64,000 nucleotides of DNA from Rhizobium rhododendri. GTDB lineage: Bacteria; Pseudomonadota; Alphaproteobacteria; Rhizobiales; Rhizobiaceae. The notes beneath the pieces were generated by a model that searched no databases, was not told where the DNA came from, and worked only from the letters and a program-made list of their open reading frames with translations. A program made the translations under genes and the position numbers. Below are positions 9,093 to 62,909 of the stretch, piece after piece (positions within the stretch are counted from its first letter, which is position 1; each line of letters begins with the position of its first letter). The DNA is taken from assembly GCF_007000325.2 (NCBI RefSeq), contig NZ_CP117268.1, forward strand, positions 186,001 to 250,000. The letters are read 5' to 3'.

Positions 9093-9243
9093 GTAGCGCC
9101 GGGTCGGGACTGGCTCAAGCCGGGTTGGGCTTCTATCCGTCGCATCCGCGCAATTCCTGCAAAAGTGCCTGGCGATTTGGTGTCCGGAATGCGTAAAAAC
9201 AAAGGGATAGAGGCTTTCACGTCTCCGTGAAAACAGAATTGCC

Positions 9244-10257: not shown

Positions 10258-10378
10258 AGGTTGCCCCCGGGGCTTGGCGTTGCATTCATCGGCCAGCTCC
10301 TCTTCGATACGGGCATGGACGCTGATAGCAGACCGGTCGCCGAAAGGGCAATCACTTTGGCGGATGCATTGTCCAGAA

Positions 10379-11041: not shown

Positions 11042-11138
11042 GCTGGGTCCGACCTAGGTGATTCTGTCTCTCTTCTTTTGCAATGCCGTGGCCGGCTTCG
11101 CAATGCCTGCAGCGCCGATGCCGCCTTGCGAGGTGCTG

Positions 11139-12800: not shown

Positions 12801-12898
12801 GTCGGGACGAACAAAAACAACGAATGTAACTGCATTGCAATTCGCCTGCGCTTAAATTCTGCGACTAATTCATCAGCACCGTGCCGCTGGCCGCGAGA

Positions 12899-15909: not shown

Positions 15910-15910
15910 G

Positions 15911-47587: not shown

Positions 47588-47720
47588 TCGCACAATCGCA
47601 AAGTTGCGCACTCTCGCGCTGCGCGCATTGCCAAAAGGGCTATCTCTGAGGGTCTTGTGTTATCTGTCTCAAACTAATTTGACGCCAACAACGTCAGGGT
47701 CTTGGCTGAACGGGAGAAAA

Positions 47721-47734
47721 TGATATCGATAACC
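47721..47734. promoter_or_regulatory. Probable LacI operator upstream of the SMP-30 gene
   Basis: TGATATCGATAACC matches 12 of 14 positions of the TGTTATCGATAACA palindrome. It lies 22 bases upstream of the SMP-30 start, inside the probable promoter, so the lactonase gene is likely in the same regulon. Confidence 0.6.
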
Positions 47735-47755
47735 GAAATGCAGATGGAGTTGACG

Positions 47756-48679
47756 ATGTTTGGTGAAATCGAAGGCAGCGGCTTTGAAGTTATCGATCCT
47801 CAATTCGAGGCCTGCTTTGTCGGCCATGCGCGGGTCGAGCGGCTCTGGACAGGAGGCCGCTGGCTGGAGGGGCCTGCCTGGTTTGCCCCCGGACGTTACC
47901 TGGTGTTCTCCGACATTCCGAACAATCGGATGATGCGCTACGATGAAGCCAGCGGTCAGACCTCCGTATTTCGGTCGCCATCGAACAATTCCAACGGCAA
48001 TACCGTCGACAACGAAGGTCGGCTCGTGACCTGCGAGCATCTGACGCGACGGGTCACCCGGACGGATTTCGACGGCAAGATTACTGTCATCGCCGATCAG
48101 GTCGACGGCAAGCGTCTGAATTCTCCGAACGATGTGACCGTGAAGTCGGATGGCACGATCTGGTTCACCGATCCGACCTACGGCATCCTGACCGATTACG
48201 AAGGTGATTATGGCGAGGAGGAGATCGGCGGTTGCCATGTCTATTGCCATGATCCGCAGACCGGAACGCGTCGTGTCGCCGCCGATTTCGTCAAGCCGAA
48301 CGGGCTGGCATTCTCGCCGGACGAATCCATTCTCTACGTTTCCGACACCGGCGTTTCGCATCTCAGCGGCGGACCGCGTCATATCCGTAAACTTGCCGTA
48401 TCCGCCGATGGCAGGCTCGAAAATATCGGCGTCTTTGCAGAGTGCACGTCAGGTCTGTTCGACGGCTTCAGGGTCGATCGCAGGGGCCGTATCTGGGCCA
48501 GTGCGAGTGACGGCGTTCACGTCTACGATTCCGACGGCAACCTGATCGGCAAGGTCCGGATCCCCGAAGGCGTGTCCAACCTCACCTTCGGCGGTCCGAA
48601 AGGCAATCGGCTGTTCATCACCGGAACAACATCGCTATACGCGGTCTACGTGACGGCGAACGGAGTGAAACTGGGCTGA
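47756..48679 (+). CDS. SMP-30/gluconolactonase family protein
   Basis: Calcium- or zinc-dependent beta-propeller hydrolase of 307 residues. In this family it opens aldonolactones such as gluconolactone. Markers are the metal Glu in RWLEGPAWF, the metal Asn in RLNSPNDVTVKSDGTIWFTDPTYG, and SPDESILYVSDT. The ATG at 47756 has GGAG seven bases upstream and gives the usual MFGEIEGSGFEV start; an open frame from 47702 would run through the operator. It fits the sugar-acid regulon as the step making free acid from lactone. Confidence 0.88.
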   Translation: MFGEIEGSGFEVIDPQFEACFVGHARVERLWTGGRWLEGPAWFAPGRYLVFSDIPNNRMMRYDEASGQTSVFRSPSNNSNGNTVDNEGRLVTCEHLTRRVTRTDFDGKITVIADQVDGKRLNSPNDVTVKSDGTIWFTDPTYGILTDYEGDYGEEEIGGCHVYCHDPQTGTRRVAADFVKPNGLAFSPDESILYVSDTGVSHLSGGPRHIRKLAVSADGRLENIGVFAECTSGLFDGFRVDRRGRIWASASDGVHVYDSDGNLIGKVRIPEGVSNLTFGGPKGNRLFITGTTSLYAVYVTANGVKLG

Positions 48680-48696: not shown

Positions 48697-49209
48697 TCAG
48701 GCGCCGAGATGGTGGTAGGCACGCTTGTAGTAGACCAGCGCCTTTTCCGCAGCGCTTTCGCGGATAGCCTTTACCGAGCAGAACAGCACCCGGTGGGTGC
48801 CGACATCGACCATGTCGGTGAGCACGCATTCGAACGATACCATGGCATCCTCCAGCACCGGAGCGCCCGTAACCCCATAGTGCCAGTTGGCTGCGGCAAA
48901 GCGCTGTTCGACGGGGGTCTTGCCGCCAAACAGGCCTGAAAGCCCTTCGTGCCCGGCGGTCAGGACATTGACGCAGAGCGCCTTGTTGCCCATGACCGCA
49001 TTGAATACCGACGCCGTCCGGTTGAGACAGATGAGCAAGGTGGCGGGGCTGTCGGTGACGCTGCAGACAGCGGTCGCTGCAAAGCCTGCCTTGCCGGCCG
49101 GACCATCCGTCGTGATGATGTTCACGGCCGCGCCCATCTTCGCCATTGCGTCGCGAAAGACCTGCGGGCTTACGTCTTCAATGGTTTCGATCTGGGTCGT
49201 GGCGTCCAT
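48697..49209 (-). CDS. rutF: Flavin reductase, RutF-like
   Basis: NAD(P)H:FMN reductase of 170 residues with the split-barrel flavin-reductase fold. The run [19 protein letters not shown], then [18 protein letters not shown] and [13 protein letters not shown], is characteristic of RutF. RutF supplies reduced FMN to the pyrimidine monooxygenase RutA. A RutA-like gene lies 8 kb away under a shared operator, so the two are likely partners. It is the last gene of the leftward importer-amidase operon, an unusual place since rut genes are normally one operon. Confidence 0.88.
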
Positions 49210-49262
49210 CGGTATGATCCTTCATGGGGTGTCCGCCCGTTCCGGCGGGTTGCATGTTTTGC

Positions 49263-50681
49263 TCAGGCGGCCGGCCGCGCAAGCGATGGGTCGGTGAAGG
49301 CCGTCAGGCCAACTGCTCGTTCGAGCCTCAGGGCGACGCTGGCGGCCAGATCCTCGCGCCATGGACGCGCGACGATCTGCAGCGCAATGGGTAGCCCGCC
49401 AGCGGACATCGAAACCGGCACGGTGACCACCGGCAGGCCGAGATAGCTGAACGGTCTCGTGAACGCGGTCATCGCGCTGACGACAGCGTTCATCGTCGGG
49501 CTCGTCCCGACGTCAACCTCGCTGGACAGCGGTGGAATGAACGGCATTGTCGGCGCAATCAGGACATCGATGCCGGCAAAGGTTGTCTCGAGAAACTCTC
49601 TCAGCATCACCGACCTCATCTGCAGGGCACGCAGATAGATCGGCGCCGGGATCGCCAGCGACTGCGAAAGTCGCATGCGGATCTGCGGGCCGTAATCTTC
49701 CGGACGCTCGCGCATCCAGTCGAAATGCACCGTACCCGCTTCTGCCATGGCCACTGCATTGGCGAGTTCAGCGATGGCGGAGAGATCGGGCAGGGGTGCA
49801 GCAGCGATGCCGGCTACATCTGGCGACAAAGCCCTGATTGCCGTCTCCATCCCGCCTGCAACGTCGCTTTCCAGTCCGTCGGCAAACGGACCGCCGGCAA
49901 TTCCGATCCGCAGCGATGACAGGTCGGAAAGCAGCGCACCGGGCTTGTCTGCATCCATGCAGGTCGTGTCGTGTCCGTCCGGGCCGGCGATCAGCTGCAA
50001 CAGCAGGTAGGCGTCTGCGACGGAGCGCGCCAGAGGGCCGACGCAATCCTGCGAGAATGACAGCGGCATCGCCCCATGACGGCTGACGCGTCCCTGTGTC
50101 GGCTTGATCCCGACCGTGCCACAACAGGCGGCCGGCAGACGGATGGAGCCGCCCGTGTCTGAGCCGAGAGCCGCCAGCACCACCCCGCCGCCAACGGCAG
50201 ATCCGGACCCGGAGGAAGAGCCGCCGGTGATCCGCGCAGCATCGATCGGGTTCAGCGCCCTGCCGTGGTGAAAATTGTGCCCCGTCGGTCCCATGGCGAA
50301 TTCGCTCATGTTGAGCCGGCCGATGGAGAGCGCACCCGCTGCTTGCAGACGCTGCATGACTGTGGACGTCGAGGTCGCCACATGACCCTTGCGGATCTTC
50401 GAGCCGCAACCGGTCACGAAGCCGGCGCGGTCATACATATCCTTGTGGGCGAGTGGCACACCATGCAGCGGCCCTACCGTCCGGCCGGCGGCAAGCGCAA
50501 CATCGGCGGCACGGGCTGCCTCGAGCACGGGGCCTTCCTCGATCTCGATAAAGGCGTTCAGCCGCTCGTGGCTGGACTTTGCGCGGGCGAGTGCGGCGGT
50601 TGTCATCTCGACGGAAGTAATCCGGCCGGCGAGGATCGCCTCCGCAGCCTCCTTGAGCGTGGTCGGGTTATCGAGGCTCAT
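49263..50681 (-). CDS. Amidase-signature family hydrolase (AtzE/GatA-like)
   Basis: Hydrolase of 472 residues cleaving an amide or carboxy-urea bond. The full Ser-Ser-Lys triad is visible: K80 (LAHKDMY), cis-Ser S155/S156 (GGSSSGSG) and nucleophile S179 (SDTGGSIR). Its start overlaps the stop of a 67-codon gene (ATGA). That layout recalls AtzE, whose activity needs the small partner AtzG, but the small protein here is not clearly AtzG. It sits in the operon of the RbsABC-like importer and rutF. Substrate unknown; one of three amidases in the locus. Confidence 0.87.
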   Translation of the reverse strand: MSLDNPTTLKEAAEAILAGRITSVEMTTAALARAKSSHERLNAFIEIEEGPVLEAARAADVALAAGRTVGPLHGVPLAHKDMYDRAGFVTGCGSKIRKGHVATSTSTVMQRLQAAGALSIGRLNMSEFAMGPTGHNFHHGRALNPIDAARITGGSSSGSGSAVGGGVVLAALGSDTGGSIRLPAACCGTVGIKPTQGRVSRHGAMPLSFSQDCVGPLARSVADAYLLLQLIAGPDGHDTTCMDADKPGALLSDLSSLRIGIAGGPFADGLESDVAGGMETAIRALSPDVAGIAAAPLPDLSAIAELANAVAMAEAGTVHFDWMRERPEDYGPQIRMRLSQSLAIPAPIYLRALQMRSVMLREFLETTFAGIDVLIAPTMPFIPPLSSEVDVGTSPTMNAVVSAMTAFTRPFSYLGLPVVTVPVSMSAGGLPIALQIVARPWREDLAASVALRLERAVGLTAFTDPSLARPAA

Positions 50682-50881
50682 CGTCCGGCCTCAACGCGCA
50701 AGACAGCTTCGAAATGGGCTGGTTCGGTGTTGAACAACGCGCCTGCCTTATCGGTAAGTGGCTTGGCGATGCTGGTCTTGTCGCGCATGGCTTCACCGGC
50801 CATGGCCACAAGCTCCGCCTCGTCGGCCGGGCGATCCCAATAGGTCTCGGCAAGGGCAGCCACGATCTTCATCAGGTCCAT
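50678..50881 (-). CDS. Small protein coupled to the amidase, unknown family
   Basis: A 67-residue protein starting MDLMKIVAALAETYWDRPADEAELV and ending in VLRVEAGR. It is predicted mostly helical, acidic in the first half, without signal peptide or cysteines. Its ATG shares one base with the permease stop, and its stop overlaps the amidase start by 4 bases, so it is translated in step with both. Size and position match the GatC-like partner AtzG of carboxybiuret hydrolase, yet I see no convincing sequence likeness. A much longer open frame reads through here from 51910, but only this segment is outside other genes. Confidence 0.68.
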   Translation of the reverse strand: MDLMKIVAALAETYWDRPADEAELVAMAGEAMRDKTSIAKPLTDKAGALFNTEPAHFEAVLRVEAGR

Positions 50882-51891
50882 CAGCTGAAATCCTGTGGCT
50901 GGCGATTGCGCACGAGCTGGCTGAGCGACACGGCGATGACCAGGGCGCCTCCGTAGAACAGGTTCTGCACATAGGCATCCGCCCCGAGCATGGTCAGGCC
51001 GGTGATGCCGGTCACGAGGAAATAAACGCTGATCACCGCGCCGAAGGCATTGAAGCGGCCGGGCGAGATTGTCGTTGCGCCGAGGAATGCTGCGGCGAAC
51101 GCCGGAAGCAGAAGGTTGAGGCCGGACAGCGGATCGGCTGATCCCGTCATGCCGGCATAGAGCATGCCGGCAAAGGCGGAGATCAGCCCGGAGAGCACGA
51201 AGGAGGTGGCGCGCACCCTGTCGACATTGATGCCGTTCAGCCGGGACACTTCGCGCCCGCGGCCGACGAACAGCAGCTTGCGGCCGGCAATGGTGAATTC
51301 CAGCGCGTACCAAAGGATGACGGCGAGGATCAGGGCATAGAAGAAGGCGAGGGGAATGCCGAACAGCCGGTTGATGATGACCCATTTGACCAGGCCCATG
51401 GAGACGCCTGATATCGTCTGCGAATTGCTGACCCAGAGGATCAGCCCGTTCACGAACGTACCGACACCGAGCGTGACGATCAGCGAATGGATGCGGAAAT
51501 AGAGGACGAAGAATGCATTGACCGCGCCGATGACGATACCGCTCACCAGCGCGATGACGATCACGGGGACGATCGGCCAGCCGAATTTGACGTTGAGCAC
51601 GGCGATCAGCATGGTGCTCATCGTCAGGGTCGAGGCCCCAGACAGGTCGAAATCGCCCGATGTCAGCGGAATGATGATGGCAAGCGTCAGCACCACGAGC
51701 ACGGCCTGTGAGCCGAACAGGGTGGAGAAGCTTCGCCAGCTCAGGAACGAATCCGGCATCAGCGTTCCGAAAATCACGATGAGCAGCAACCATGCGCCCA
51801 CAAGGGCGAAGCGCTCGCCCTCGGTTTTTATCGTGAAGCGGCTCCTTGCCGGCATCGAGGTCTTGGTCGTCGGCATATCCAGCGTCGTCAT
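50881..51891 (-). CDS. ABC transporter permease (RbsC-like)
   Basis: Inner-membrane permease of 336 residues with about nine to ten helices. The RLNGINVDRVRATSFVLSGLISAFAG motif of the RbsC/branched-type family is present. Its ATG overlaps the ATPase stop by 4 bases. With the ATPase and binding protein it forms a dedicated importer for whatever compound this locus degrades. RbsABC-type systems take sugars but also autoinducers and nucleoside-like molecules, so substrate class is open. Confidence 0.9.
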   Translation of the reverse strand: MTTLDMPTTKTSMPARSRFTIKTEGERFALVGAWLLLIVIFGTLMPDSFLSWRSFSTLFGSQAVLVVLTLAIIIPLTSGDFDLSGASTLTMSTMLIAVLNVKFGWPIVPVIVIALVSGIVIGAVNAFFVLYFRIHSLIVTLGVGTFVNGLILWVSNSQTISGVSMGLVKWVIINRLFGIPLAFFYALILAVILWYALEFTIAGRKLLFVGRGREVSRLNGINVDRVRATSFVLSGLISAFAGMLYAGMTGSADPLSGLNLLLPAFAAAFLGATTISPGRFNAFGAVISVYFLVTGITGLTMLGADAYVQNLFYGGALVIAVSLSQLVRNRQPQDFS

Positions 51892-53435
51892 TCTGCGGCC
51901 TCCGCGTCATGGCTGTGGAAACAGGCTTCGGTGATTGCCTTGCGGCTGATCTCGGCGCCCTTGAGTTCGATCACCGGGCGACCGCGCGAAAAGACGATGA
52001 TGCGGTCGCAGATCTGTTCGAGTTGTTCATTGTCGGTCGAGGCGCAAAGTATCGCCGTGCCATCCGCCGCCGCCCGGTCCAGCGCCCTGAAAATCTGCTG
52101 GCGAGCGCCGAAATCGACGCCCTGCGTCGGTTCGTCGAGCATCAGAAGCTTCGGCTTAGTCTGCAGCCATTTGGCCAGCAGCACCTTTTGCTGATTACCT
52201 CCGGACAGCGAGCCGAGCGGGAGATGCGGATTGGCTGGCCTGACGTCGTAACTCTGGACGAGCGCTGCCGCTGCACGCGTCATTCCGGGACGATCGAGTC
52301 CGTAAGGCCTGGTGAGGCCATCCAGCATGGGGAGCGTGATATTGTCGGTCACCGGCAGTGTGCCGATGCCGGCAGCACCCAGGCGATCTCCGGGCAGGAA
52401 GGCGATGCCCAGCTTCTGCGCAGCAAGCGGCGTCACCGCGCTGACCTTCGCCGATTTGCCCCCGATGGTGATTTCACCGCTGCCCCGTCTCGCACCATAG
52501 AGCAGGTAGGGGAGGGCTGCAAAGCCGGAGCCGATCAGGCCAGTCACACCCAGCGTCTCGCCCTCCCGGATCTCGAAATCGAAAGGTGCGCTGGTGCCAT
52601 TGGAAATACCGCGCACGCTGACCGCCACCGGCACGCCTGTCCTGGCCATGCGCTTCTTTTCGAACGCGTCGATCCGCGAGCCGACGATGGTGTCGAGGAT
52701 AGACTGCCGCTGTGATGTACGGGTATCGAGGATATCGACCAGCTCTCCGTCGCGCAGCACCGCGACACGGTCGGTGATATCTCGGACCTCGTCGATATCA
52801 TGCGTGACGATGACGACGGAGGCGCCGGTCTTGACGATGGAGCGGATCAGCGCAAAAAGTCGCAGCACGTCGTCGGCCGGCAGGAATGGCGTCGGTTCGT
52901 CGAGGACCAGGATGCCTTCGCCGCCATAGCCGGCATCGGACGCCCTGAGGTCCTCGAACGCACGGATGATGGCGACAAAGGCCCGCTCCACCGGCGCAAG
53001 GTTCGCCACCGTCTGGAACGGATCGATCGACAGGTCGAATTCGGAAAACAGCCTGGAGATGGCGGCTGCTTCCTTCTTCCAGTTGACGAACCAAGGCGTC
53101 TTCTGGCCAAGCGCTGTGACCCGCATATTCTCGAGCACCGTCAGGGATGGCACGAGACCGAGGTGCTGGTGGACGAAAGCTACTCCTCGCTTCTTGATCG
53201 CCATCGGATCGAGCGGCAGAGACATTTTCTGCCCCCAGAGGATGACCTCGCTGCCCTCTTCCGGCTGGTGAAAGCCGGCCAGCACCTTGATCATGGTGGA
53301 TTTGCCGGAGCCGTTCTGGCCGAGAAGGCCGAATACCTCGCCCCGCCGTATCGACAGCGAAACACCCTTGAGCGCATAGTAGCTGCCGAAGCGCATACTG
53401 ATGTTGTTCATGGTGAGGACGGCATTTTCGACCAT
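51888..53435 (-). CDS. ABC transporter ATP-binding protein (RbsA-like, duplicated)
   Basis: ATPase of 515 residues with two nucleotide domains. The first has Walker A GQNGSGKST and Walker B ILVLDEPTPFL. The second keeps SGGNQQKVLLAKWLQ and LLMLDEPTQGVD, but its Walker A is degenerate (GLIGSGFAA), as in RbsA. It follows the binding-protein gene by 28 bases and overlaps the permease. The energiser of the importer in the RutA-type locus. Confidence 0.91.
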   Translation of the reverse strand: MVENAVLTMNNISMRFGSYYALKGVSLSIRRGEVFGLLGQNGSGKSTMIKVLAGFHQPEEGSEVILWGQKMSLPLDPMAIKKRGVAFVHQHLGLVPSLTVLENMRVTALGQKTPWFVNWKKEAAAISRLFSEFDLSIDPFQTVANLAPVERAFVAIIRAFEDLRASDAGYGGEGILVLDEPTPFLPADDVLRLFALIRSIVKTGASVVIVTHDIDEVRDITDRVAVLRDGELVDILDTRTSQRQSILDTIVGSRIDAFEKKRMARTGVPVAVSVRGISNGTSAPFDFEIREGETLGVTGLIGSGFAALPYLLYGARRGSGEITIGGKSAKVSAVTPLAAQKLGIAFLPGDRLGAAGIGTLPVTDNITLPMLDGLTRPYGLDRPGMTRAAAALVQSYDVRPANPHLPLGSLSGGNQQKVLLAKWLQTKPKLLMLDEPTQGVDFGARQQIFRALDRAAADGTAILCASTDNEQLEQICDRIIVFSRGRPVIELKGAEISRKAITEACFHSHDAEAAE

Positions 53436-53463
53436 GAGGCGCTCCTGCTGCGTTCGCGTTGAC

Positions 53464-54564
53464 CTACTTCATCATCCAGAGTTTGCGGAAGCCGTCGAGG
53501 TGGGCGTCGCCATAGCCGTCGTTGAAATTGGCAGGTGTGCCGGCGGTCTGGATATTGGTGTCGTCGAAGACCAGCAGCGGCACGTTGAGCTTGGCGACTT
53601 CAGGCTCGCCGCACAGCATCCGCATGATGTTGTCGATCGCCGCATAGCCGGCCCAGCCGAGGCTTTCGCCAACATCCATCTGCACCTGGCCTCCGCGCAC
53701 CATGTCGAGAACGAATGGCGTGCCATTGAAACTGGCAAGCTTGACGCTGCCTTCTGAGCCGGTGATGCGGAGCGCCGGGATGACGAACTGCGACATGGAG
53801 TCGTAGATCGGCAGGATGTAGTTGATCGAGGGATCGGCCAGCAGAGCGGATTGCGTGCCCGACTGGATCTTCGTTGCCCATTCGGAAACGGGCACGTCCA
53901 GATGCTTCATCTTGCAGCTCGGGCAAAGCGTTTTGAGTTCATCCTGGATCGACTTGACGAAGGGGATCGAGGGGAGGACGTCGGACGAGCCGATGATCAG
54001 TACATTTGGTTTACCTTCGGTCTGGACATAGGCCCAGGCTGCCAGCAGCTTGCCGGCGCCGCTAAAGTCGATCTTGCCGGAATAGTCGACGGTGTCGATT
54101 GCCGGCTGGGTCACGTCGTAGAAATGCGTCGTCGATATCTTCAGGCCGGCGGCGCGCGCTTCGCCCAGTTGCGGACCGAGAACTTGCGGGTTCAGGCCGC
54201 CCGCCAGGTCGAGAGCGTCATATTTCTGGCTGATCGCCTGCGAGATACCCTGCACCCACTGGTCGATCTTCAACTGGTTGTCCCAGGTGGTGTAGGTGAA
54301 GCCCACTTCGGCTGCAGCCGATGCCATTGCTTTCTGCAATTCGACATTGAACGGGATGGTCATCGAGATCGGGATCGACAAAACCTTCTTGCCGGCCATG
54401 CACTGCTTGGCGTTGAAGGGTTCGCCCGGGGGCGTGAATACCGGCATGGCGCGGTGCTGCGTGATGATCGCCTTGGCATCCTCCATGGGGTCGGCCATCG
54501 CGGTTGTGGACAGGCCGGCGAAGGCGGAGACCGCCAGCATTGTACTCACGAAAAGCAGGCGCAT
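53464..54564 (-). CDS. Periplasmic substrate-binding protein of ABC importer
   Basis: Binding protein of about 366 residues of the periplasmic-binding-protein-4 family. The Sec signal MRLLFVSTMLAVSAFAGLSTTAMA is cut before DPMEDAK. Mature features are KKVLSIPISMTIPFNVELQKAM and DALDLAGGLNPQVLG. The CPSC pair (residues near 225) could form a disulfide. The ATG at 54564 is about nine bases after GAGGGGA; an upstream ATG at 54573 is too close to it. First gene of the leftward operon, with a GTAC palindrome 77 bases upstream of the start. Confidence 0.89.
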   Translation of the reverse strand: MRLLFVSTMLAVSAFAGLSTTAMADPMEDAKAIITQHRAMPVFTPPGEPFNAKQCMAGKKVLSIPISMTIPFNVELQKAMASAAAEVGFTYTTWDNQLKIDQWVQGISQAISQKYDALDLAGGLNPQVLGPQLGEARAAGLKISTTHFYDVTQPAIDTVDYSGKIDFSGAGKLLAAWAYVQTEGKPNVLIIGSSDVLPSIPFVKSIQDELKTLCPSCKMKHLDVPVSEWATKIQSGTQSALLADPSINYILPIYDSMSQFVIPALRITGSEGSVKLASFNGTPFVLDMVRGGQVQMDVGESLGWAGYAAIDNIMRMLCGEPEVAKLNVPLLVFDDTNIQTAGTPANFNDGYGDAHLDGFRKLWMMK

Positions 54565-54640
54565 GATCAACATTCCCCTCTGTGATCCCGGTCTGCCCGG
54601 GGTCCTACAACGTAGCTTTCGATCAGCTATCTAAACTTAA

Positions 54641-54654
54641 AGTACGTACATACT
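54641..54654. promoter_or_regulatory. GTAC-centred palindrome upstream of the ABC importer operon
   Basis: AGTACGTACATACT is a near-palindrome centred on GTAC. Similar 14-mers precede the rutA-like operon and the MFS/gntR pair. It is probably the operator of the local GntR regulator. A weaker relative occurs near 54826. Confidence 0.65.
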
Positions 54655-54855
54655 CAAGGAAACGTCAACCGGATTTTGCCTATTTTTTTGCACTGCACAT
54701 TTATACGGCGATTGCTAAAAACCATATCAGATAGGCGCTTGAATCGTGTTCAATTGCACATCGGAGCCAATCGTCAGCCTATAGCGAGCGCCTGCAGCAA
54801 GCGGCGCCGCACGCATGCGTCATCAGTATGTCAGTACATATGGACGATTTTCAGG

Positions 54856-56076
54856 TCAGTGGCTTGAGCGATGGGCTCGCCATGCGATGATCATGCCGCC
54901 GAAACCGAACAGGGAAAAGACCATGAAGCTCGCACCATAGTGGCCGGTCAAAGCATAAAGACTGGCAAAGGACGACGGACCGACGATGACCCCGATGAAG
55001 GTGTAGACCAGAACGCCCCCGGTGATCGCGCCGACTCTGCCTTCCGGAGCATTGTGGGCCACCTCTGCGAGCAGCACGCCGTTCCATCCAATCGTCACGC
55101 CGCCCATGCAGACGAAAAGAGCGACCTGCGCGACCGGTGGCAGGCCGGGCAGCCAGTAGAGCAAGGCATAGCCGGCGCCGCCGAGCAGGCCAAGCAGTGA
55201 CAGGGTGATGAAGCCGCCGCCGATGCGATCGGCGACCACGCCCCAGAAGATGCGACCGAAGGCGCCAGCGAACTGCATGGCCGCAGCAACGGACCCTGCG
55301 GCGAGCAAGGACCAGCCGGCGTCGTGCACAAGCGTAACCACGGCGAAGGCGGAAACCGACAGTTGCATGGCGGAATAGGCAAAGCCCAGGCCGCTCAGCG
55401 TCAGCAGACGCGGGTTGCGCCAGATCGTCGATTGTTCCTCGATCAACCCGCGCAACAGGGATCGGCGCCTGCTGACTACGACGGGTTCGGCCGCATGCGT
55501 CATCGCCAGCAACCCCATCGTCAACAGCGGTGCGGCCGCCCCGATCAGCAGTGCGATATTCCAGTCGACATAGCGGGAGAGATAGGGGAAGGCGAAGCTT
55601 GCGAGGATGCCGCCCAGCGGGACGCCGGATTGCTTCAGCGAAAATACGATGTTCCGCTTGTTCTGCGGGGTGACTCGGCTCAGCATTTCGGAAGATGCAG
55701 GATTGTTCAGGCCGTAGCCGATGCCGATAAAAAGCGACGCAATGACGATCAGTGGAATACTGGCGGTGGCAATGCCGGCAAAACCGATCACGCAGCAGAC
55801 AAGTGCAGCCTGTTCAATTCGGATCGGCCCGAAGCGCTGGACCAGCGTGCCGGCGATTGCAGAGGAGAACATGCCAGAGGCATAGATCAGGCTGATCTGA
55901 TAGCCGATCCAGTAGGCGCCGATATCGAGATCTGCTGCCACCGTCGGCGCAATGGCCGTGAGTGCAAGGACGCTCGCGGTCGCCACGATCTGGATCAGCG
56001 TTGCCGCCACAAGGGTTTGCATCAGCGAAGAAGCTCGGCGCGTTTGCGTGGCCTCTCCGGCAATCAGGTCCGACAT
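54856..56076 (-). CDS. MFS transporter
   Basis: Twelve-helix major-facilitator protein of about 406 residues. The loop between helices 2 and 3 has VQRFGPIRIEQ and the mid-section has NPASSEMLSRVTPQNKRNIVFSLKQSG, a cyanate/CynX-like or general metabolite MFS pattern. I start at the ATG at 56076 (MSDLIAGEA), with GAG five bases upstream, rather than an in-frame TTG at 56085. It is divergent from the GntR gene with a palindrome between them. It may import a second substrate or export a product of the locus; direction cannot be told. Confidence 0.86.
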   Translation of the reverse strand: MSDLIAGEATQTRRASSLMQTLVAATLIQIVATASVLALTAIAPTVAADLDIGAYWIGYQISLIYASGMFSSAIAGTLVQRFGPIRIEQAALVCCVIGFAGIATASIPLIVIASLFIGIGYGLNNPASSEMLSRVTPQNKRNIVFSLKQSGVPLGGILASFAFPYLSRYVDWNIALLIGAAAPLLTMGLLAMTHAAEPVVVSRRRSLLRGLIEEQSTIWRNPRLLTLSGLGFAYSAMQLSVSAFAVVTLVHDAGWSLLAAGSVAAAMQFAGAFGRIFWGVVADRIGGGFITLSLLGLLGGAGYALLYWLPGLPPVAQVALFVCMGGVTIGWNGVLLAEVAHNAPEGRVGAITGGVLVYTFIGVIVGPSSFASLYALTGHYGASFMVFSLFGFGGMIIAWRAHRSSH

Positions 56077-56107
56077 GCGTCTCAATATCCTGGGAAATTA
56101 TAGCTGG

Positions 56108-56121
56108 GATATGTACGTACT
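56108..56121. promoter_or_regulatory. GTAC-centred palindrome between the MFS and gntR genes
   Basis: GATATGTACGTACT matches the reverse complement of the 54641 site at 12 of 14 bases. It is 32 bases upstream of the MFS start and about 143 upstream of the gntR start, so it could repress both. Confidence 0.6.
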
Positions 56122-56263
56122 AATAGATTTGCTTTGCTGGCACAAGCGGGTCAGGATGCGTTTGCGGACATGCTGAAATTCGATTGCCTTTCGCCGGGAA
56201 AGACGATTGAAACCTTTACAACGGAGATGTGCCGGTGATTTTAGCTGGCAAGGGGTGGGGTGC

Positions 56264-57022
56264 TTGGATCAGAAAAGCAATCATTGGAAGCCGGAGCTGG
56301 ATACGGCGCCGCTCTATCTGCAGGTCGCCCATCACCTGGAGTCTCGCATCAGCAATGGCGACTACCCGGTCGGCACCCTTTTGCCGACAGAGAACGAGAT
56401 TGCCGCAGCGCTGGGCGTCAGTCGCCAGACCGTGCGTCAGGCAATCGGGACCCTGCGCAACAAGGGGCGTCTTTCGGCGCGCAAGGGGGTAGGCACCCGT
56501 GTTGAGGCCGGCTTCGATCCGGAACGCAAACGCTTCATCGCCCACTCGCGCTCCGAACTTTTCGAAATCGCCGCCGAGACCGAATTTGTAATCGACACGA
56601 AGGAGGAGGTCTCGGCGCAGGGTAAACTTGCGATCGAGCTGGGTTGCCGTCCTGGCCGAAAGTTCTTCCACATGGCCGGTATCCGTTATCCCGGCAATCG
56701 AAGCAGGCCGTTTTCGTGGAACGAGGTCTACGTCGATTCCAGGCTTGCTGGCGCCGTGAAGGACATCACGGTCGCGAGAAGTGCTATTTTTCACTATATC
56801 GAACAGTTTACCGGCGAAAAAATCCAGGAAATCCAGCAGGAAATCAAGCCTATCGCGCTCGATGAGGTGATTGCCGGCAAGCTTGGCGTCAGCACGGGCG
56901 ATCTCGCGCTCGTCGTCACGCGCCGCTACTACGGCTCCGGTCGCCGCCTGCTGGAATATGCTTTCCAGGTTCTGCCGGCAGAGCGCTTTACCTTCACCAC
57001 GACACTGCGCGCCGAGAGCTGA
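56264..57022 (+). CDS. GntR family regulator with UTRA ligand domain (HutC subfamily)
   Basis: Regulator of about 252 residues. A winged helix-turn-helix occupies about residues 12-80 (PTENEIAAALGVSRQTVRQAI). A UTRA effector domain follows and ends with a conserved VVTRRYYGSGRRLLEY. The start is uncertain: a TTG at 56264 with AAGGGG upstream gives a normal length, while the frame is open back to a TTG at 56207. It is central in the locus and divergent from the MFS gene. GTAC palindromes at three promoters are the probable targets, and the inducer is probably the pathway substrate or an intermediate. Confidence 0.86.
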   Translation: MDQKSNHWKPELDTAPLYLQVAHHLESRISNGDYPVGTLLPTENEIAAALGVSRQTVRQAIGTLRNKGRLSARKGVGTRVEAGFDPERKRFIAHSRSELFEIAAETEFVIDTKEEVSAQGKLAIELGCRPGRKFFHMAGIRYPGNRSRPFSWNEVYVDSRLAGAVKDITVARSAIFHYIEQFTGEKIQEIQQEIKPIALDEVIAGKLGVSTGDLALVVTRRYYGSGRRLLEYAFQVLPAERFTFTTTLRAES

Positions 57023-57244
57023 GGCTGACAGCCGCGTGAATGGTTCCCGCCTTTGCCGGCGCCATGATTCGTCTGCCCATTCCGCCTGTAATTGCCTTTC
57101 TGATTGGCTTTTTGCCTCGTCATTCGCCGTTTGAATAATTTCCCGGCGCCAAACTTCTGCGTGCAAATCAGCCGTTTGATTAATAAATAGGCGCGCCTAA
57201 AGATGCGTCATTTTTGGCTTTACAGGCCCGAAAAATTTTGCATT

Positions 57245-57258
57245 AGTTCGTACATACT
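57245..57258. promoter_or_regulatory. GTAC-centred palindrome upstream of the rutA-like operon
   Basis: AGTTCGTACATACT differs from the 54641 site by one base and lies 34 bases upstream of the rutA-like ATG. The matching pair on both flanking operons is the best evidence for a shared regulator. Confidence 0.65.
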
Positions 57259-57292
57259 GCCTTGCATGTCCATCAGATAAAAGGGGAACCAC

Positions 57293-58375
57293 ATGGATAT
57301 CGGTGTTTTCATTCCCATCGGAAACAATGGCTGGCTGATCTCCACTACCTCGCCGCAGTACATGCCGAGCTTCGAGCTCAACAAGCAGATCGTCCAGAAA
57401 GCAGAGGGATACGGGCTCGAGTTTGCTCTCTCGATGATCAAGCTGAGAGGCTTCGGCGGCAAGGCCGAGTTCTGGGACTACAATCTTGAGAGCTTCACGC
57501 TTATGGCCAGCCTGGCGGCTGTCACCAAGCGCATCAAGCTGTTTGCCTCGACGGCCGTGCTGACTCTGCCGCCGGCCATTGTCGCGCGCATGGCGACGAC
57601 GATCGACAGCGTGGCGCCCGGCCGTTTCGGGGTCAATATCGTGTCGGGCTGGCAGATGGCGGAATATGACCAGATGGGCATGTGGCCGGGAAATGACTAT
57701 TTCGGCTACCGCTACGATTATTCGACCGAATACGTCCACATCATGAAAGAGCTCTGGGCCAAGGGCGAATGCTCCTTCGAAGGCAAGCACTTCACCATGA
57801 AGGATTGCATGATGAAGCCGATGCCGGCGAACAAGATCGAGATCGTGGCAGCAGGTCAGAGTCCGCGCGGCATGGAATTCGCGGCAGAGTACGCCGATTA
57901 CAACTTCGTCATGGGCTCGGGCATCAACACGCCGACCGCCTATGCGCCGAACAACGCCAAGCTGGTTGAAGCGGCTGCCAAGACCGGCCGCGATGTCGGC
58001 GCCTACGTGCTGTTCATGGTGATCGCCGAAGAGACCGACGAACTGGCAAAGGCAAAGTGGGAGAGCTACCGCGAAGGGGCCGATGTCGACGCCCTCGCGT
58101 GGATGGCGGACCAGGGCAGCAAGGATGCAACTGCCGACAGCAACTCGACCGCCAAGCACATCAACCTGCCGGAAGGTGCTGTCAATTTCAACATGGGCAC
58201 CCTGGTAGGCTCTTATGCCAGCGTCGCCCGGATGCTGGAGGAGGCCGGCAGCGTTCCCGGTACAAAGGGCATCATGCTGACCTTCGACGACTTCCTGGTC
58301 GGTCTCGACAAGTTTGGGGAGCGCATCCAGCCGTTGATGGCGTCGCGCATGCCGAGCCAGATGGCGGCCGAATAA
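57293..58375 (+). CDS. rutA: RutA-like FMN-dependent pyrimidine/amide monooxygenase
   Basis: Luciferase-like flavin monooxygenase of 360 residues. The family signature runs almost unbroken: [56 protein letters not shown] and the C-terminal [16 protein letters not shown]. RutA uses reduced FMN and oxygen, by way of a flavin-N5-oxide, to open the uracil ring at its amide. Close relatives in this family also attack other heterocycles, so the substrate may differ here. GGGGA precedes the ATG. It leads a coupled operon with two amidases and an isochorismatase-fold enzyme; its likely reductase RutF is at the far end of the leftward operon. Confidence 0.88.
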
Positions 58376-58376
58376 G

Positions 58377-59933
58377 GTGCATCGCCTTCTGCCAGATGCC
58401 GGGGCCGCAGCACCGCTTGTCGGCCCCCGCGACCTCCTGGATCCACTGACGCTGGTCGACCCCGGCGTCGCAGATCGCACCTACGCCCGTTTGGCACCCT
58501 CAGGCGAGCCGTTCCCAAGCCCTGATGTCGAGCCCGCGATCGAAGATTTGCCAATAAGGACCGCCGGCGTGGACGCGCTTCTTTCCGCGTATGCCGGTGG
58601 GAGACTGTTGCCTTCGCACGCCCTGCGCTCGCTTATCAGTGCGTCGCGATCCTGCACCGCAGGTGGCGAGGCTATCCTTCGCTTCGTGCCGCAGGCTGAA
58701 AAGGCCGCCTGTGAAAGCGACGAGCGTTGGCGCAATGGAACGGTGCGGCCGCTGGAGGGCATTCCGTTCGGCGTCAAGGACATCATCGATGTCGCCGATA
58801 CGATCACCACATCCGGCTCCCATTTTACCGGCGATCGCGTCGCGCCGGCCGATGCCGATGTCGTGGCCGACTTGCGTGCCGCCGGCGCCATTCCCTTTGC
58901 CATGACTGCGACCACCGAGTTTGCCACCGGTTCACCGCACAACCCGCGCTTCGGTACGGTGCGCAATCCGTGGGATCAAAGCCGCTGGACGGGTGGATCG
59001 TCGACGGGATCCGCTGCAGCACTGGCCGCGCAGCTGATGCCGCTTGCGCTCGGCACGGACACCGGTGGATCAATCCGGGTCCCATCCTGCTGGTGTGGCA
59101 CGACGGGCCTGAAGCCGAGCCGGGACCGCGTGTCCCGAAAAGGTGTCGCGCCCCTGTCCTGGACACTCGACCATGTCGGTCCGATGGCCCGCTCGGCAAG
59201 GGACATCGCCCGTGTATTGTCTTTCATGACCGCCCAGCGGGAGCCATCCTTGGCTGCGCAATGTGCTGCCATTCTGGCGGGCGAGACTTTAGAGGGTCTT
59301 CGCATCGGCGTGCCCGTCAACTGGTTCACGGATGTGGTTGACGACGCCGTTCTCGCCAATTGGGAGGCTGCGCTGAAGACGATGGAGAGGCTTGGATGCA
59401 TCTGCATTCCGCTCCCTGCCATCGATATCGCCCCTTGGCATGAGGCCGGCTGGGTCATCCTCCAAAGTGAATTGGCAACGCTGCATTCTCCCCGTCTCGA
59501 TCGTGTGGAGATGTTCGACGCGGGCCTTGTTCACAGGCTGAAGAACGGCCTCACCTATTCCGCGGTCGATTACGGGCGTGCGCTCCAGATGCGCGCCGAG
59601 GCACAAAGCGGCTTCCTCGACGCCATGGCCGACGTCGATCTGGTCGTTACGCCCGGCATCGGTGGCGAGGCTGGCGTGCTCGATGGGCTGACCGTCGATG
59701 TGAACGGGATCTCGCATACCTTCCAGTCGATGATTTCGCGAAACACGATGATTTTCGACGTCACCGGCCTGCCGGCCCTGATGCTGCCATCCGGCCTCGG
59801 TCGCACCGGTCTGCCGACCGGTATACAGATCGTCGGCAGGCCCCAGGCCGATGCGATGTGCCTTTCCCTTGGGGCCGCTTTTCAGCGCGCGACCGAGTTC
59901 CACGACATGATGCCGCCGGGACTGGCGATATGA
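58377..59933 (+). CDS. Amidase-signature family hydrolase, long form
   Basis: Hydrolase of 518 residues. About 100 residues precede the usual amidase core, longer than the other two amidases here. The triad is complete: K134 (FGVKDII), cis-Ser S208/S209 (GGSSTGSAAA), nucleophile S232 (TDTGGSIR). It begins with GTG one base after the rutA stop, with a weak ribosome site, so it depends on coupling. It overlaps the next amidase by 4 bases. The substrate is inferred to be an amide or carbamoyl intermediate made by the monooxygenase. Confidence 0.85.
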   Translation: MHRLLPDAGAAAPLVGPRDLLDPLTLVDPGVADRTYARLAPSGEPFPSPDVEPAIEDLPIRTAGVDALLSAYAGGRLLPSHALRSLISASRSCTAGGEAILRFVPQAEKAACESDERWRNGTVRPLEGIPFGVKDIIDVADTITTSGSHFTGDRVAPADADVVADLRAAGAIPFAMTATTEFATGSPHNPRFGTVRNPWDQSRWTGGSSTGSAAALAAQLMPLALGTDTGGSIRVPSCWCGTTGLKPSRDRVSRKGVAPLSWTLDHVGPMARSARDIARVLSFMTAQREPSLAAQCAAILAGETLEGLRIGVPVNWFTDVVDDAVLANWEAALKTMERLGCICIPLPAIDIAPWHEAGWVILQSELATLHSPRLDRVEMFDAGLVHRLKNGLTYSAVDYGRALQMRAEAQSGFLDAMADVDLVVTPGIGGEAGVLDGLTVDVNGISHTFQSMISRNTMIFDVTGLPALMLPSGLGRTGLPTGIQIVGRPQADAMCLSLGAAFQRATEFHDMMPPGLAI

Positions 59934-61294
59934 GCGCTGAAACGCCGTCTGTGCCCCTGCCGAACCAGCTGACTGCCACGGATTTGCTGGCGATGCTGGC
60001 CGATGACAAGTTGAGCGCTAGCGATGTGGTGGAAGCGTGCCTTGAGCGCATCCGCCTGCGGGATGGCGATGTGCAGGCCTGGCTCGCCGTCAATCCGCAG
60101 GCACTGGCCGAGGCCGCCCGTCTGGATGCCTTGCCGAGGGAAAAGCGTGGCCGGCTGCATGGCCTGCCGATTGCTGTCAAGGATGTGTTCGACACCCACG
60201 ACCTGCCGACGACCTACAACTCGCCGCTTTATGGTGGTTTCCAGCCTGCGGCGGATGCTGCGGCCGTCGATCTGCTGCGCGCGGAAGGTGCAATCGTGCT
60301 CGGCAAGACCGACACGACGGAATTTGCCGCCGCCGGGCAGGATGCCAAAACCGGCAATCCGTACGATCTCGCACGCACCTCCGGCGGTTCGTCTGCCGGT
60401 TCTGCGGCAGCCGTCGCCGACTTCCACGTGCCGTTGGCGCTTGCCACGCAGACCGGCGGCTCGACCATTCGCCCGGCTTCCTTCTGCGGCGTCTACGCCT
60501 TCAAGCCGAGCTACGGTCGTGTCAGCCGGGAGGGTGTGAGGCTCTATTCCATCAGCTTTGACACTGTGGGCTGGTATGGCCGTTCGGTTGCGGACCTCGC
60601 ATTGCTGGCGAATGTCTTCGGTCTGGACGAACCTCTCGGGCCGGAAAGTCGCCCGGATGCGTTGAGGATGGCCGTGACCACCGGCCCCTACCATGACCGC
60701 CTGCAGGACAAAAGCCTGCGGGCAATGACATCGGCCGCCGACAGCCTGCGACAGGCCGGTCATCAGGTCCATGAGCTCGAACTTCCGCCGGCCTTCGAAG
60801 CGCTCGATCGCTATCACCGGGTCATTCTGCATCGCGAAGGCCAGGCGGCGTTTCGCAATCTTGCCCGTCGACATGGCGCCGCCCTGCATGACGATTTCCA
60901 CCACCGGGTGGAAAATCGCGATGGAACGACGCTTGCCGAACTGAGAGACGCCTATGACGGCATGGGGCTGGCGCGGATCGCGTTCGACGAGATCGCAGCC
61001 AACTACGATGTGGTGATCGCGCCGAGCGCTGCCGGGTTTGCACCCGTCGGCCGCAAACCCGGCGATCCCGTGTTCAATGCCTCGTGGACGCTGCTCGGCG
61101 TGCCCTGCGTGAATATTCCAGTGCCGCCGCCGGCATCTCCCGGCGGGCTGTCGCTGCCGATCGGGGTGACAGTGATCGCGCCGCGTTTTGCCGACAGCCA
61201 TCTTCTCGCCCATGCCGACCGGATTGCCGCAGTCCTGAGTCCGAAAGCCCCTGTCGTCGAGACCGTCCATGAATTTCGAGGGAGCCGTCCGTGA
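59930..61294 (+). CDS. Amidase-signature family hydrolase
   Basis: Hydrolase of 454 residues, standard amidase length. The triad is K84 (AVKDVFD), cis-Ser S154/S155 (GGSSAGSAA) and S178 (QTGGSTIR). ATG overlaps the previous stop (ATGA), and its own stop overlaps the next gene (GTGA). Two tandem, clearly distinct amidases suggest two different amide steps, or two subunits, in the same pathway. Confidence 0.87.
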   Translation: MSAETPSVPLPNQLTATDLLAMLADDKLSASDVVEACLERIRLRDGDVQAWLAVNPQALAEAARLDALPREKRGRLHGLPIAVKDVFDTHDLPTTYNSPLYGGFQPAADAAAVDLLRAEGAIVLGKTDTTEFAAAGQDAKTGNPYDLARTSGGSSAGSAAAVADFHVPLALATQTGGSTIRPASFCGVYAFKPSYGRVSREGVRLYSISFDTVGWYGRSVADLALLANVFGLDEPLGPESRPDALRMAVTTGPYHDRLQDKSLRAMTSAADSLRQAGHQVHELELPPAFEALDRYHRVILHREGQAAFRNLARRHGAALHDDFHHRVENRDGTTLAELRDAYDGMGLARIAFDEIAANYDVVIAPSAAGFAPVGRKPGDPVFNASWTLLGVPCVNIPVPPPASPGGLSLPIGVTVIAPRFADSHLLAHADRIAAVLSPKAPVVETVHEFRGSRP

Positions 61295-61920
61295 GCGAAG
61301 CCGACCTGCGTGCGAACTATGCCAAAGCCTATGACAACCGCATCGGCTTCGGCAGGAAGCCTGCCCTGGTGCTGGTCGATTTCGTCCAGGCCTATTTCGA
61401 GCCTGACAGCCCGCTATTCGCAGGTGTCGATGCGGCGCTGGAAAGTGCCCTGCGCATCCGTGCCGCAGCGCATGAGAAGAACCTTCCCGTCATCCTGACC
61501 GGCGTCGTCCTGCATTCGAGCGGTCTGGATGGCGGCCGGTTTTTCCAGAAGGCCAAGCCGCTGGCGAGCTTTACCGCAGGCAACCCTCTCGGCGCCTGGC
61601 CGAAGGGGCTTGAGCCACGGGCTGACGAGTTTGTTGTGACGAAGCAGTATCCGAGCGCGTTCTTCGGCACGTCTCTGGCGCCGATGCTGACCGCGATGGG
61701 GGTCGACAACGTCATCCTCACCGGGCTGACCACCAGCGGCTGCGTGCGCGCTTCCTGCGTGGATGCCATGTCGCATGGCTTCATCACGACGGTGGTGCGC
61801 GACGCCTGTGGCGACCGTCATCCGGCTCCGCACGAGGCCAATCTTTTCGATATGAACGCAAAATATGCCGACGTCGTCTCCGAGGCGGAGATCCTGGCGT
61901 TTATCGATGGCCTCGACTAA
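61291..61920 (+). CDS. Isochorismatase-fold cysteine amidohydrolase
   Basis: Hydrolase of 209 residues. The Asp-Lys-Cys triad of the family is visible: D30 (LVDFVQAYF), K118 (VTKQYPSAF), C151 (TTSGCVRASCVDAM). The TSGCVRA context is closer to N-carbamoylsarcosine or maleamate amidohydrolases than to RutB (ureidoacrylate hydrolase), whose signature differs. GTG start coupled to the preceding amidase. It probably releases ammonia or carbamate from a late pathway intermediate. Last gene of the operon; converges with ltnD without a visible terminator. Confidence 0.87.
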   Translation: MSEADLRANYAKAYDNRIGFGRKPALVLVDFVQAYFEPDSPLFAGVDAALESALRIRAAAHEKNLPVILTGVVLHSSGLDGGRFFQKAKPLASFTAGNPLGAWPKGLEPRADEFVVTKQYPSAFFGTSLAPMLTAMGVDNVILTGLTTSGCVRASCVDAMSHGFITTVVRDACGDRHPAPHEANLFDMNAKYADVVSEAEILAFIDGLD

Positions 61921-61982: not shown

Positions 61983-62876
61983 TTAGCTGGCGCCGTTTGC
62001 CTTGGCTATGAAGTCGGTGAGGTGCGGAACGTAGTCTTCTGCTCCGGCACCGCCATTCGCCATCGCCACGGCGAATGAGTTCTTCACCGCGCTCGACATT
62101 GTGGTGGTGACTGTCGCCGCATTTGCCATCGATTCCACGTAGCGCATGTCTTTGTAGGCATTGCTGAGGGTGAACTTGTGGGCTTCGCGGTTGCCTTCCA
62201 GAGCATAGCCCATGAAAGTCTGATAGAAGCCGCAATCCATGCGTCCGCCGCGGATCACCTGGTCGAATGTTTCTATGGAGATGCCAACTTTTTTCGACAG
62301 CGCCAGGGCCTCGGAATAGAGCGCGGCATAGCCGAGCGAGATGAAATTGTTCAGGAGCTTCATCCGATGGCCGTCGGCGACGCCGCCGATGTGGACGATC
62401 TTGCCCGCCCATGTCGAGATCACCGGCTTGATGCGCTCAAAAACCGCCGCATCGGCGCCGACCATGCAATCGAGAGTACCCGCCCACGCTTCTTTCGGCG
62501 TGCGGCTCAAGGGGGCGTCGGCGTAGAGAACGCCGATCTCGGCCATCTCTGCGGCCAGCGTCTGTGTCACCGTGGGCTCGCCGGTCGAGCAATCGACGAT
62601 AACGGTCCCTGCGGCAAGGCCCGGTTTCATGGCCGCGACGGCAGCGGCAACTTCCGGCGAGCCGGTCAGGCAAAGAAAGACGATGGTGGAGTGACGGGCC
62701 AGTTCATCGAGAGACTTTGCCTCGGTGGCTCCCCTTGAAACCAGATCGTCGACCGGCACCCGGTTTCGATGGGCGACGACCTGCAGCGCGTAGCCCTTTT
62801 CAACGATATTCTTTGCCATGCCATGGCCCATCAGCCCGGTGCCGACAAACCCGATGGTCTCAGTGGTATTGCTCAT
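61983..62876 (-). CDS. ltnD: L-threonate dehydrogenase (HIBADH family)
   Basis: NAD-dependent beta-hydroxyacid dehydrogenase of 297 residues. The cofactor site is VGTGLMGHGMAKNI, the substrate loop DAPLSRTPKEAWAGTL and the catalytic lysine region DGHRMKLLNNFI. Alone it would be a generic HIBADH protein. Next to otnC and otnK, however, it fits LtnD or DtnD, which oxidise L-threonate or D-erythronate to the 2-keto acid later phosphorylated by OtnK. Third gene of that operon. Confidence 0.85.
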   Translation of the reverse strand: MSNTTETIGFVGTGLMGHGMAKNIVEKGYALQVVAHRNRVPVDDLVSRGATEAKSLDELARHSTIVFLCLTGSPEVAAAVAAMKPGLAAGTVIVDCSTGEPTVTQTLAAEMAEIGVLYADAPLSRTPKEAWAGTLDCMVGADAAVFERIKPVISTWAGKIVHIGGVADGHRMKLLNNFISLGYAALYSEALALSKKVGISIETFDQVIRGGRMDCGFYQTFMGYALEGNREAHKFTLSNAYKDMRYVESMANAATVTTTMSSAVKNSFAVAMANGGAGAEDYVPHLTDFIAKANGAS

Positions 62877-62909
62877 TTTACTCTCTCCCTGAACGTAAAT
62901 GGTCGGCGA

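Follow-up and report, generated by a model that had tools for sequence, protein, structure and literature searches.

A conserved locus of Rhizobium rhododendri joins a distinct clade of RutA-type monooxygenases to amidase-signature hydrolases

Introduction

What ring does a RutA-type monooxygenase open when its gene stands among amidase genes and lacks rutB, rutC and rutD as neighbours? The question is raised by positions 48697 to 61920 of a 64,000-nucleotide stretch of Rhizobium rhododendri DNA (contig NZ_CP117268.1, positions 186,001 to 250,000 of the forward strand), hereafter the window. A first-pass annotation, made from the letters of the window, had described here a RutA-like enzyme, a RutF-like reductase, three amidase-signature (AS) amidases, an isochorismatase-fold hydrolase, an importer, a major facilitator superfamily (MFS) protein and a GntR regulator. 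All of them are present with open frames at the positions given below. As that annotation had also stated, rutB, rutC and rutD are not seen in the locus, and the isochorismatase-fold protein matches the RutB model poorly (40.9 bits against a cut-off of 377.95). We report that the RutA of this locus belongs to a clade of its own, in a gene set that is conserved across genomes. We propose, with about even confidence, that the locus is a GntR-controlled regulon through which a cyclic amide is taken up and degraded, most likely one with a substituted uracil-type (pyrimidine-2,4-dione) ring.

A separate RutA clade linked to amidases

The RutA-type FMN monooxygenase gene (57293..58375, + strand) was placed in a tree of RutA-like rows (74 distinct ones, reduced from 86 by removal of identical rows), with a midpoint root for display; RutA-like tblastn segments covering 300 residues or fewer were left out. 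Thirty-seven rows, the window's RutA among them, form one clade (support 96/88), which we name RutA2, and 31 form a sister clade (97/88), while six further rows lie outside both, most of them on long branches. Neighbourhoods were scored within 9 kb, counting an AS amidase at a tblastn E value of 1e-12 or better with half the query covered, and rutB at 50% or more identity to that of Escherichia coli. An AS amidase lies near 33 of the 37 RutA2 rows and rutB near none of them; the sister clade shows the reverse, with rutB near 24 of its 31 rows and no AS amidase near any. As 25 rows come from loci found through the isochorismatase-fold gene, the link to that gene is selected; the sampling does not select directly for AS amidases or against rutB.

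The four RutA2 rows without an AS amidase belong to L116, L091, L130 (one of its RutA genes) and L040 (L and G numbers are our handles for loci and genomes). The L091 gene sits at the edge of the fetched stretch, and L040 has only an isochorismatase-fold gene and a TRAP-like transporter. One alphaproteobacterial genome (G095; L116, L117 and L119) carries four RutA-type genes over the cut-off (572.6–621.2 bits), none near rutB or an AS amidase. Two open frames of 892 and 907 residues (G280 and G358) were considered as RutA fusion proteins and rejected, since by eye each has a normal RutA start after upstream sequence that looks non-homologous.

Conservation of the locus

RutA over the cut-off was found in 33 of 394 Rhizobiaceae genomes, at 44 places (E limit 1e-100). 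These fall into a first type (25 places, 691.6–714.1 bits) and a second type (19 places including the window, 548.5–632.6 bits, 18 of them at 616.4–632.6). Both types occur in 10 genomes, the first alone in 15 and the second alone in 8. Apart from the window, every second-type place (18, in 17 stretches) was fetched, as were 16 of the 25 first-type places, including those of the ten double genomes. Homologs of rutB, rutC and rutD are present in all 16 first-type stretches. Because ten genomes carry both, the two kinds of RutA are probably not redundant.

Gene grouping was judged by retention in other genomes, counted strictly by identity and half-length. The ATPase, the substrate-binding protein (SBP), the MFS transporter, the GntR regulator, RutA and amidase 2 are each kept in 16 of the 17 second-type stretches, and RutF, amidase 1 and the permease each in 15. 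Retention is lower for the isochorismatase-fold gene (14), a small open reading frame (ORF) described below (13) and amidase 3 (8); a lyase gene is found in 4 and RutE in 2. The outlier throughout is L130, in which two divergent RutA genes stand beside a peptide-type ATP-binding cassette (ABC) system (by eye). In L135 (1–7000), transposase-like ORFs (by eye) replace RutF, amidase 1, the small ORF and the permease, a natural partial loss, and the L143 stretch ends at a contig end. The same picture comes from 80 loci found through the isochorismatase-fold gene: 25 have any RutA, 23 of these a RutA at least 82% identical to the window's, and amidase 2 is present in 22 of the 23. The locus is a conserved unit, and the gene set without rutB, for which the first-pass annotation had suggested a synteny search and whose dispersal it would have counted against its proposal, is kept together in other genomes.

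More distant relatives keep parts of the set. Palleronia sp. LCG004 (L128) is arranged much like the window's locus, with genes for a Rid-family protein, an isochorismatase-fold enzyme, a malonic semialdehyde reductase, an amidase and a 53-residue ORF and with ABC, MFS and GntR genes followed by RutA and two amidases. A flavin reductase, two amidases, a 59-residue ORF, GntR and RutA are found in Thioclava (L127), and amidase 1-like, RutA, MFS and amidase 3-like genes in Novosphingobium (L126). A RutE-type gene adjoins the locus in four relatives (L145/L037, L036, L146 and Palleronia L128), with 303.7 bits in L145 and 299.2 bits in L128 (cut-off 152). We infer from this neighbour that the product has the oxidation state of malonic semialdehyde, as it does with uracil. 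The Thioclava locus also holds, near RutA2, a DHBP-synthase-like protein (3548–4123; RibB 67.1 bits, cut-off 177.45) adjoining the flavin reductase and a racemase-family gene, which possibly serves flavin supply or has a new role.

The genes that flank the set in the window were considered as members and placed outside the conserved unit. By eye they are SMP-30-like (47702–48679) on one side and LtnD/OtnC/OtnK-like, of a threonate-type acid sugar pathway (61983–64000), on the other; high-identity LtnD and OtnC occur in only one of the 80 isochorismatase-fold loci (L017).

RutA2 and RutF2

RutA2 of the window scores 622.5 bits on the RutA equivalog model TIGR03612 (cut-off 498.3) and is 64% identical to E. 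coli RutA. The residues of the oxygen pocket (L65, N134, V136, W139 and F224 in E. coli numbering) are kept in the rows of the RutA2 clade, and T105 is replaced by Ser in every RutA2 row of the alignment; Ser at this position is not confined to the clade, as some other rows have it too. An excerpt of the review PMC7662398, from which the pocket residues L65, T105, N134, V136 and F224 are taken, reports that the T105S variant of E. coli RutA retains about 80% activity and that other changes at T105, N134 and V136 abolish it. Because the pocket is kept and this exchange is tolerated, RutA2 very likely carries out RutA-type chemistry, as far as its residues predict. At position 226, which adjoins F224, most rutB-linked rows have Phe, and RutA2 rows have Met, Leu, Thr or Asn. 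The flavin reductase at the opposite end of the locus, RutF2 (48697..49209, − strand), scores 243.8 bits on TIGR03615, narrowly below the cut-off of 254.75.

Amidases and the isochorismatase-fold hydrolase

All three amidases match AS models (Pfam for two, NCBIfam for three) and contain the Lys and Ser motifs characteristic of AS enzymes. The nearest PDB entry of amidase 1 (49263..50681, − strand; PF01425 344.7 bits) and of amidase 2 (58377..59933, + strand; PF01425 296.5 bits) is 6c62, named ‘Biuret hydrolase’, which we take to be AtzE, and both also match AtzE family models, amidase 2 with the lower scores. Amidase 3 (59930..61294, + strand), which is optional in relatives, probably starts at the in-frame ATG at 59930 and not at the GTG at 59858. 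Its nearest solved relative is malonamidase E2, with which it has the context of the catalytic serine, TGGSxIRPA, in common (alignment with 1obl); the Arg of this malonamidase motif binds the substrate carboxylate.

Between the permease and amidase 1, and overlapping the start of the latter, lies an ORF of 67 residues (50678..50881, − strand) that the first-pass annotation had overlooked. Homologs stand upstream of amidase 1 in relatives. Substitutions at codon positions 1/2/3 number 14/17/35, 17/17/42, 10/2/26, 10/7/17 and 1/3/10 in five pairs; as they fall mostly at third positions in all five, the ORF is predicted to be a gene, whose product, in the place of AtzG or GatC, is a candidate accessory subunit. 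The protein has no significant match in Pfam, among PDB sequences or among folds (a low-confidence helical model, mean pLDDT 62.5, was used), and hhalign gave no support for homology with the small proteins upstream of related amidases. The alignment omitted a wrongly framed L131 ORF, an unalignable L127 ORF and near-identical copies.

The isochorismatase-fold hydrolase (61291..61920, + strand) is of the N-carbamoylsarcosine/maleamate amidohydrolase type by profile and PDB matches, the best being 26st (N-carbamoylsarcosine amidohydrolase, E 1.5e-39) and 3ot4 (‘putative isochorismatase’, 2.3e-37), presumably a NicF-type enzyme. Its score on BiuH is 41.9 bits (cut-off 370). Asp30, Lys118 and Cys151 are invariant in nine aligned rows, and the gene is identical over 209 residues (100%) to that of the nearest named record, Rhizobium sp. 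L51/94 chromosome 2.

Malonamidase and carbamoylsarcosine amidohydrolase act on small carboxylate-bearing amides or ureides. The same holds for AtzE, which acts on 1-carboxybiuret (excerpt of PMC6219798), and for NicF, which acts on maleamate (excerpt of PMC5806882). Because small carboxylated amides and ureides are also the products of RutA chemistry, we infer by analogy that the AS amidases and the isochorismatase-fold enzyme would replace RutB and free the nitrogen.

Two further loci of the R. rhododendri genome hold genes of these families. One (L107, G000:C2:1498000-1512000), a probable biuret/allophanate locus, has one BiuH that passes the cut-off of 370 (424.2 bits), next to another BiuH-like gene (237.4 bits); by eye it also has an AS-type amidase of 602 residues, a nitrilase-like ORF and ABC genes. 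The other (L108, G000:C2:856000-875000) is a nic-like cluster, by eye and by its likeness to the L190 cluster of Azospirillum ramasamyi, with FAD monooxygenase, alpha/beta hydrolase, maleate-isomerase-like, isochorismatase-fold and dioxygenase-like genes.

Transport and a shared palindrome

The importer is encoded on the − strand by genes for an ABC permease (50881..51891; BPD_transp_2 in Pfam, CUT2 type by our reading), an ATPase with two ABC domains (51888..53435) and a periplasmic SBP (53464..54573; Peripla_BP_4). The PDB relatives of the SBP match too weakly for a ligand to be assigned from them. The MFS transporter (54856..56085, − strand; PF07690 107.5 bits) is followed by the divergent GntR/UTRA regulator (56207..57022, + strand; PF00392 and PF07702).

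An operator-like palindrome, AGTAYGTACRTACT, recurs between these genes. It is found 5′ of the ABC/amidase 1/RutF operon (54641..54654, AGTACGTACATACT, 0 mismatches), between MFS and GntR (56108..56121, 2 mismatches) and upstream of RutA (57245..57258, 1 mismatch), with a weak fourth site at 54825 (3 mismatches). The expected number of sites in the window is 0.74, and four were reached in 1 of 100 shuffles. Among 27 unique related loci the palindrome occurs with at most three mismatches in the MFS–GntR region of 25, the GntR–RutA region of 26 and the SBP–MFS region of all 27; first-order resampled controls gave 3, 1 and 10 of 540, respectively, and as the pattern was drawn from these same loci, which are related to one another, the result shows conservation and not binding. 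Genome-wide there are two sites with 0 or 1 mismatch, both in the locus. We reserve the term locus-specific for the sites with 0 or 1 mismatch, since at 2 mismatches the reversed control outnumbers the pattern genome-wide (17 matches per strand against 7). A palindrome common to three intergenic regions would tie the divergent halves into one regulon, putatively under the control of GntR.

Pyrimidine genes elsewhere in the genome

Profile searches were made on the whole genome (5.96 Mb, four contigs). It has one RutA over the cut-off, that of the window, the next of 13 matches scoring 131.6 bits. A RutB over the cut-off is found nowhere in the genome: the best of nine matches reaches 108.7 bits, the best of four candidate proteins scanned whole 125.2 bits, and isochorismatase genes occupy 12 places. 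Neither RutC (best 69 bits, cut-off 169.1) nor RutD (best 73.1 bits, cut-off 238.5) passes in the genome. The first-pass annotation had named a normal rutBCD set elsewhere in the genome, together with a mutant that fails only on uracil, as evidence against its proposal, and these searches found no such set. E. coli needs neither RutC nor RutD, according to an excerpt of PMC8113886, so that the absence of these two is by itself uninformative.

A reductive pyrimidine route is present. A PreA-type gene (746.2 bits, C1:2183458) lies within 8 kb of a D-hydantoinase/dihydropyrimidinase gene (604.5 bits, C1:2191044, one of three places over the cut-off), with carbamoylase-like and TetR-like ORFs between them by eye. 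The strain therefore need not use RutA for uracil.

Proposed pathway and alternatives

In the pathway that we propose, the cyclic amide would be imported by the ABC system, the MFS transporter or both. RutF2 would supply reduced FMN to RutA2, which with O2 would split the ring amide (N3–C4 in uracil numbering), as RutA does, to give a carboxylate with a ureide or half-amide. The work of RutB would then fall to amidase 1 and its putative small partner, amidase 2, the malonamidase-like amidase 3 and the carbamoylsarcosine/maleamate-type enzyme, with release of ammonia and CO2, and in some relatives the RutE-type reductase would handle a product of the malonic semialdehyde type. Somewhat more tentatively, and short of even confidence, we suggest that RutA2 represents a second physiological use of the flavin-N5 chemistry of RutA: an aerobic pathway for a natural modified pyrimidine (uracil substituted at N1 or C5) or a cyclic ureide related to it, a pathway that runs beside canonical rut, in which amidases of the AtzE and malonamidase types replace RutB and an AtzE-like enzyme has a natural role outside triazine breakdown.

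The first-pass annotation had proposed a different catabolic route in which a ring amide is opened oxidatively and several amidase steps follow. A coherent route separate from standard Rut is borne out by genes that are kept together, a RutA clade of its own and Rhizobiaceae carrier genomes of which 10 of 18 also have rutABCD, and the order of chemistry fits. The substrates it had named (hydantoin, barbiturate, diketopiperazine or pyridine amide) find no support in the 64% RutA identity, the kept pocket and the RutE-type gene of four relatives. Because of these same three observations, the product is more likely to be at the level of uracil than to derive from barbiturate, hydantoin or diketopiperazine. 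A barbiturate route, from ureidomalonate through malonamate to malonamidase, was considered and downgraded, since the RutE-type neighbour fits the oxidation level of uracil. Its appeal had been the nearness of amidase 3 to malonamidase E2 and the shape of ureidomalonate, which is like that of 1-carboxybiuret.

Several observations weigh against the proposed pathway. Four hydrolases exceed the needs of a uracil ring. Amidase 1 falls below the AtzE cut-offs (PRK09201 363.9 against 461; TIGR02715 354 against 425.75) and RutF2 below its own, and homology of the small protein to AtzG or GatC was looked for and not found in sequence or fold. RutE is not in 15 of the 17 second-type stretches, and none of its family passes the cut-off of 152 in the R. 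rhododendri genome (best 27.2 bits). Some RutA2-clade members stand near other transporters (TRAP, a TonB-dependent receptor or a peptide ABC system, by eye), and with the transporters the substrate, too, may differ from member to member. The isochorismatase-fold gene is preceded by a methylisocitrate-lyase-like gene (PrpB scores of 273.4 and 275.9 bits, below the cut-off of 354.4) in 4 of the 17 stretches and in at least 10 RutA-bearing loci found through the isochorismatase-fold gene, and a uracil-type product does not obviously need a lyase. The same lyase–isochorismatase pair is also found in islands that lack RutA and carry FAD monooxygenase, maleate-isomerase-like, deacetylase-fold, metallo-beta-lactamase (MBL) and dehydrogenase genes (all but the deacetylase-fold by eye). 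In Agrobacterium rosae (L082, about 400–16700) such an island abuts amidase 2-RutA2-GntR-MFS-SBP; its genes are those for an FAD monooxygenase, a maleate-isomerase-like and a deacetylase-fold protein, aldehyde and short-chain dehydrogenases, an MBL protein, the lyase and the isochorismatase-fold enzyme.

These islands bear on an alternative that we consider rather unlikely, in which RutA2 opens a non-pyrimidine cyclic imide or a pyridine-derived ring amide (of the maleimide, glutarimide or hydroxypyridinone type) to a Z half-amide such as maleamate, the isochorismatase-fold enzyme and the amidases hydrolyse it, and in some strains the lyase acts on a branched acid of the malate type. Identity of the isochorismatase-fold enzyme is 47% to its L108 paralog, in the nic-like cluster (by eye), and 52% to a protein from an annotated cluster with 2,5-dihydroxypyridine dioxygenase, and in Hoeflea alexandrii (L068, 13672–20541) homologs of the SBP, ATPase and permease (49, 49 and 59% identity) adjoin HyuA/HyuB-like genes. 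Since maleamate (pyridine) and HyuAB-type clusters hold relatives of this enzyme and of the importer, the substrate may be of this kind; against it stand the closeness of RutA2 to the uracil enzymes, its kept pocket and the RutE-type reductase, and AtzE-type amidases suit ureides. The closeness to uracil RutA and the kept pocket would also suit plain uracil or thymine as the substrate, with non-homologous hydrolases for RutB and ABC uptake for RutG, as would the RutE-type gene and the lack of any other RutA over the cut-off in the R. rhododendri genome. Yet ten genomes keep both systems, the reductive route is at hand and three or four hydrolases would go unexplained, so that we regard plain uracil or thymine as distinctly unlikely. 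That RutA and the amidases are mere neighbours serving unrelated compounds is very improbable: clade members do differ in transporter, amidase 3 and isochorismatase-fold gene, but gene order, overlaps and the common palindrome hold the locus together in Rhizobiaceae, and the amidase linkage extends to Palleronia, Thioclava and Novosphingobium.

Comparison with known systems

RutA is a model for flavin-N5-peroxide amide cleavage, and the RutA2 clade offers a tractable new substrate for that chemistry. All RutA2-clade members scored pass the NCBI RutA equivalog or carry a rutA annotation in their records, and such annotations may mislead, given that the clade has other gene neighbours and that ten genomes contain it alongside rutABCD. 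In addition, the locus places AtzE-type amidases in a natural context; what they do apart from triazine breakdown is called an open matter in an excerpt of PMC6219798. Titles and abstracts of the literature matches listed, mostly from outside subscription journals, contain no description of this locus.

The same excerpt describes clusters of Bordetella and Achromobacter in which a regulator, a monooxygenase and an FMN reductase accompany atzG-atzE and atzH, and gives the function of these genes as unknown. Relative to that description, which concerns Burkholderiales, the present locus adds two AS amidases, the isochorismatase-fold enzyme, the ABC system and the MFS transporter. The cyanuric acid operon atzDGEHF of Pseudomonas sp. 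ADP likewise has an AtzE-like amidase preceded by a small protein. There, according to that excerpt, AtzD opens the ring by hydrolysis; no AtzD-type gene is among the annotated genes of the present locus, and its amidase 1 misses the AtzE cut-offs. The nic-type maleamate clusters (the annotated L190 and our L108) have an isochorismatase-fold amidohydrolase 47–52% identical to that of the locus, in the company of 2,5-dihydroxypyridine dioxygenase, Asp/Glu racemase-type and alpha/beta hydrolase genes, L190 being without an annotated RutA or amidase.

With rutABCDEFG of E. coli the locus has in common RutA, a RutF-like reductase, the predicted oxidative opening of an amide followed by amide hydrolysis and, in some relatives, a RutE-type gene. 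It differs in that no RutB, RutC or RutD passes the cut-offs and AS amidases with a carbamoylsarcosine/maleamate-type enzyme stand in their place, in its ABC and MFS transport, in the GntR regulator within the locus, and in a RutA that belongs to a separate clade.

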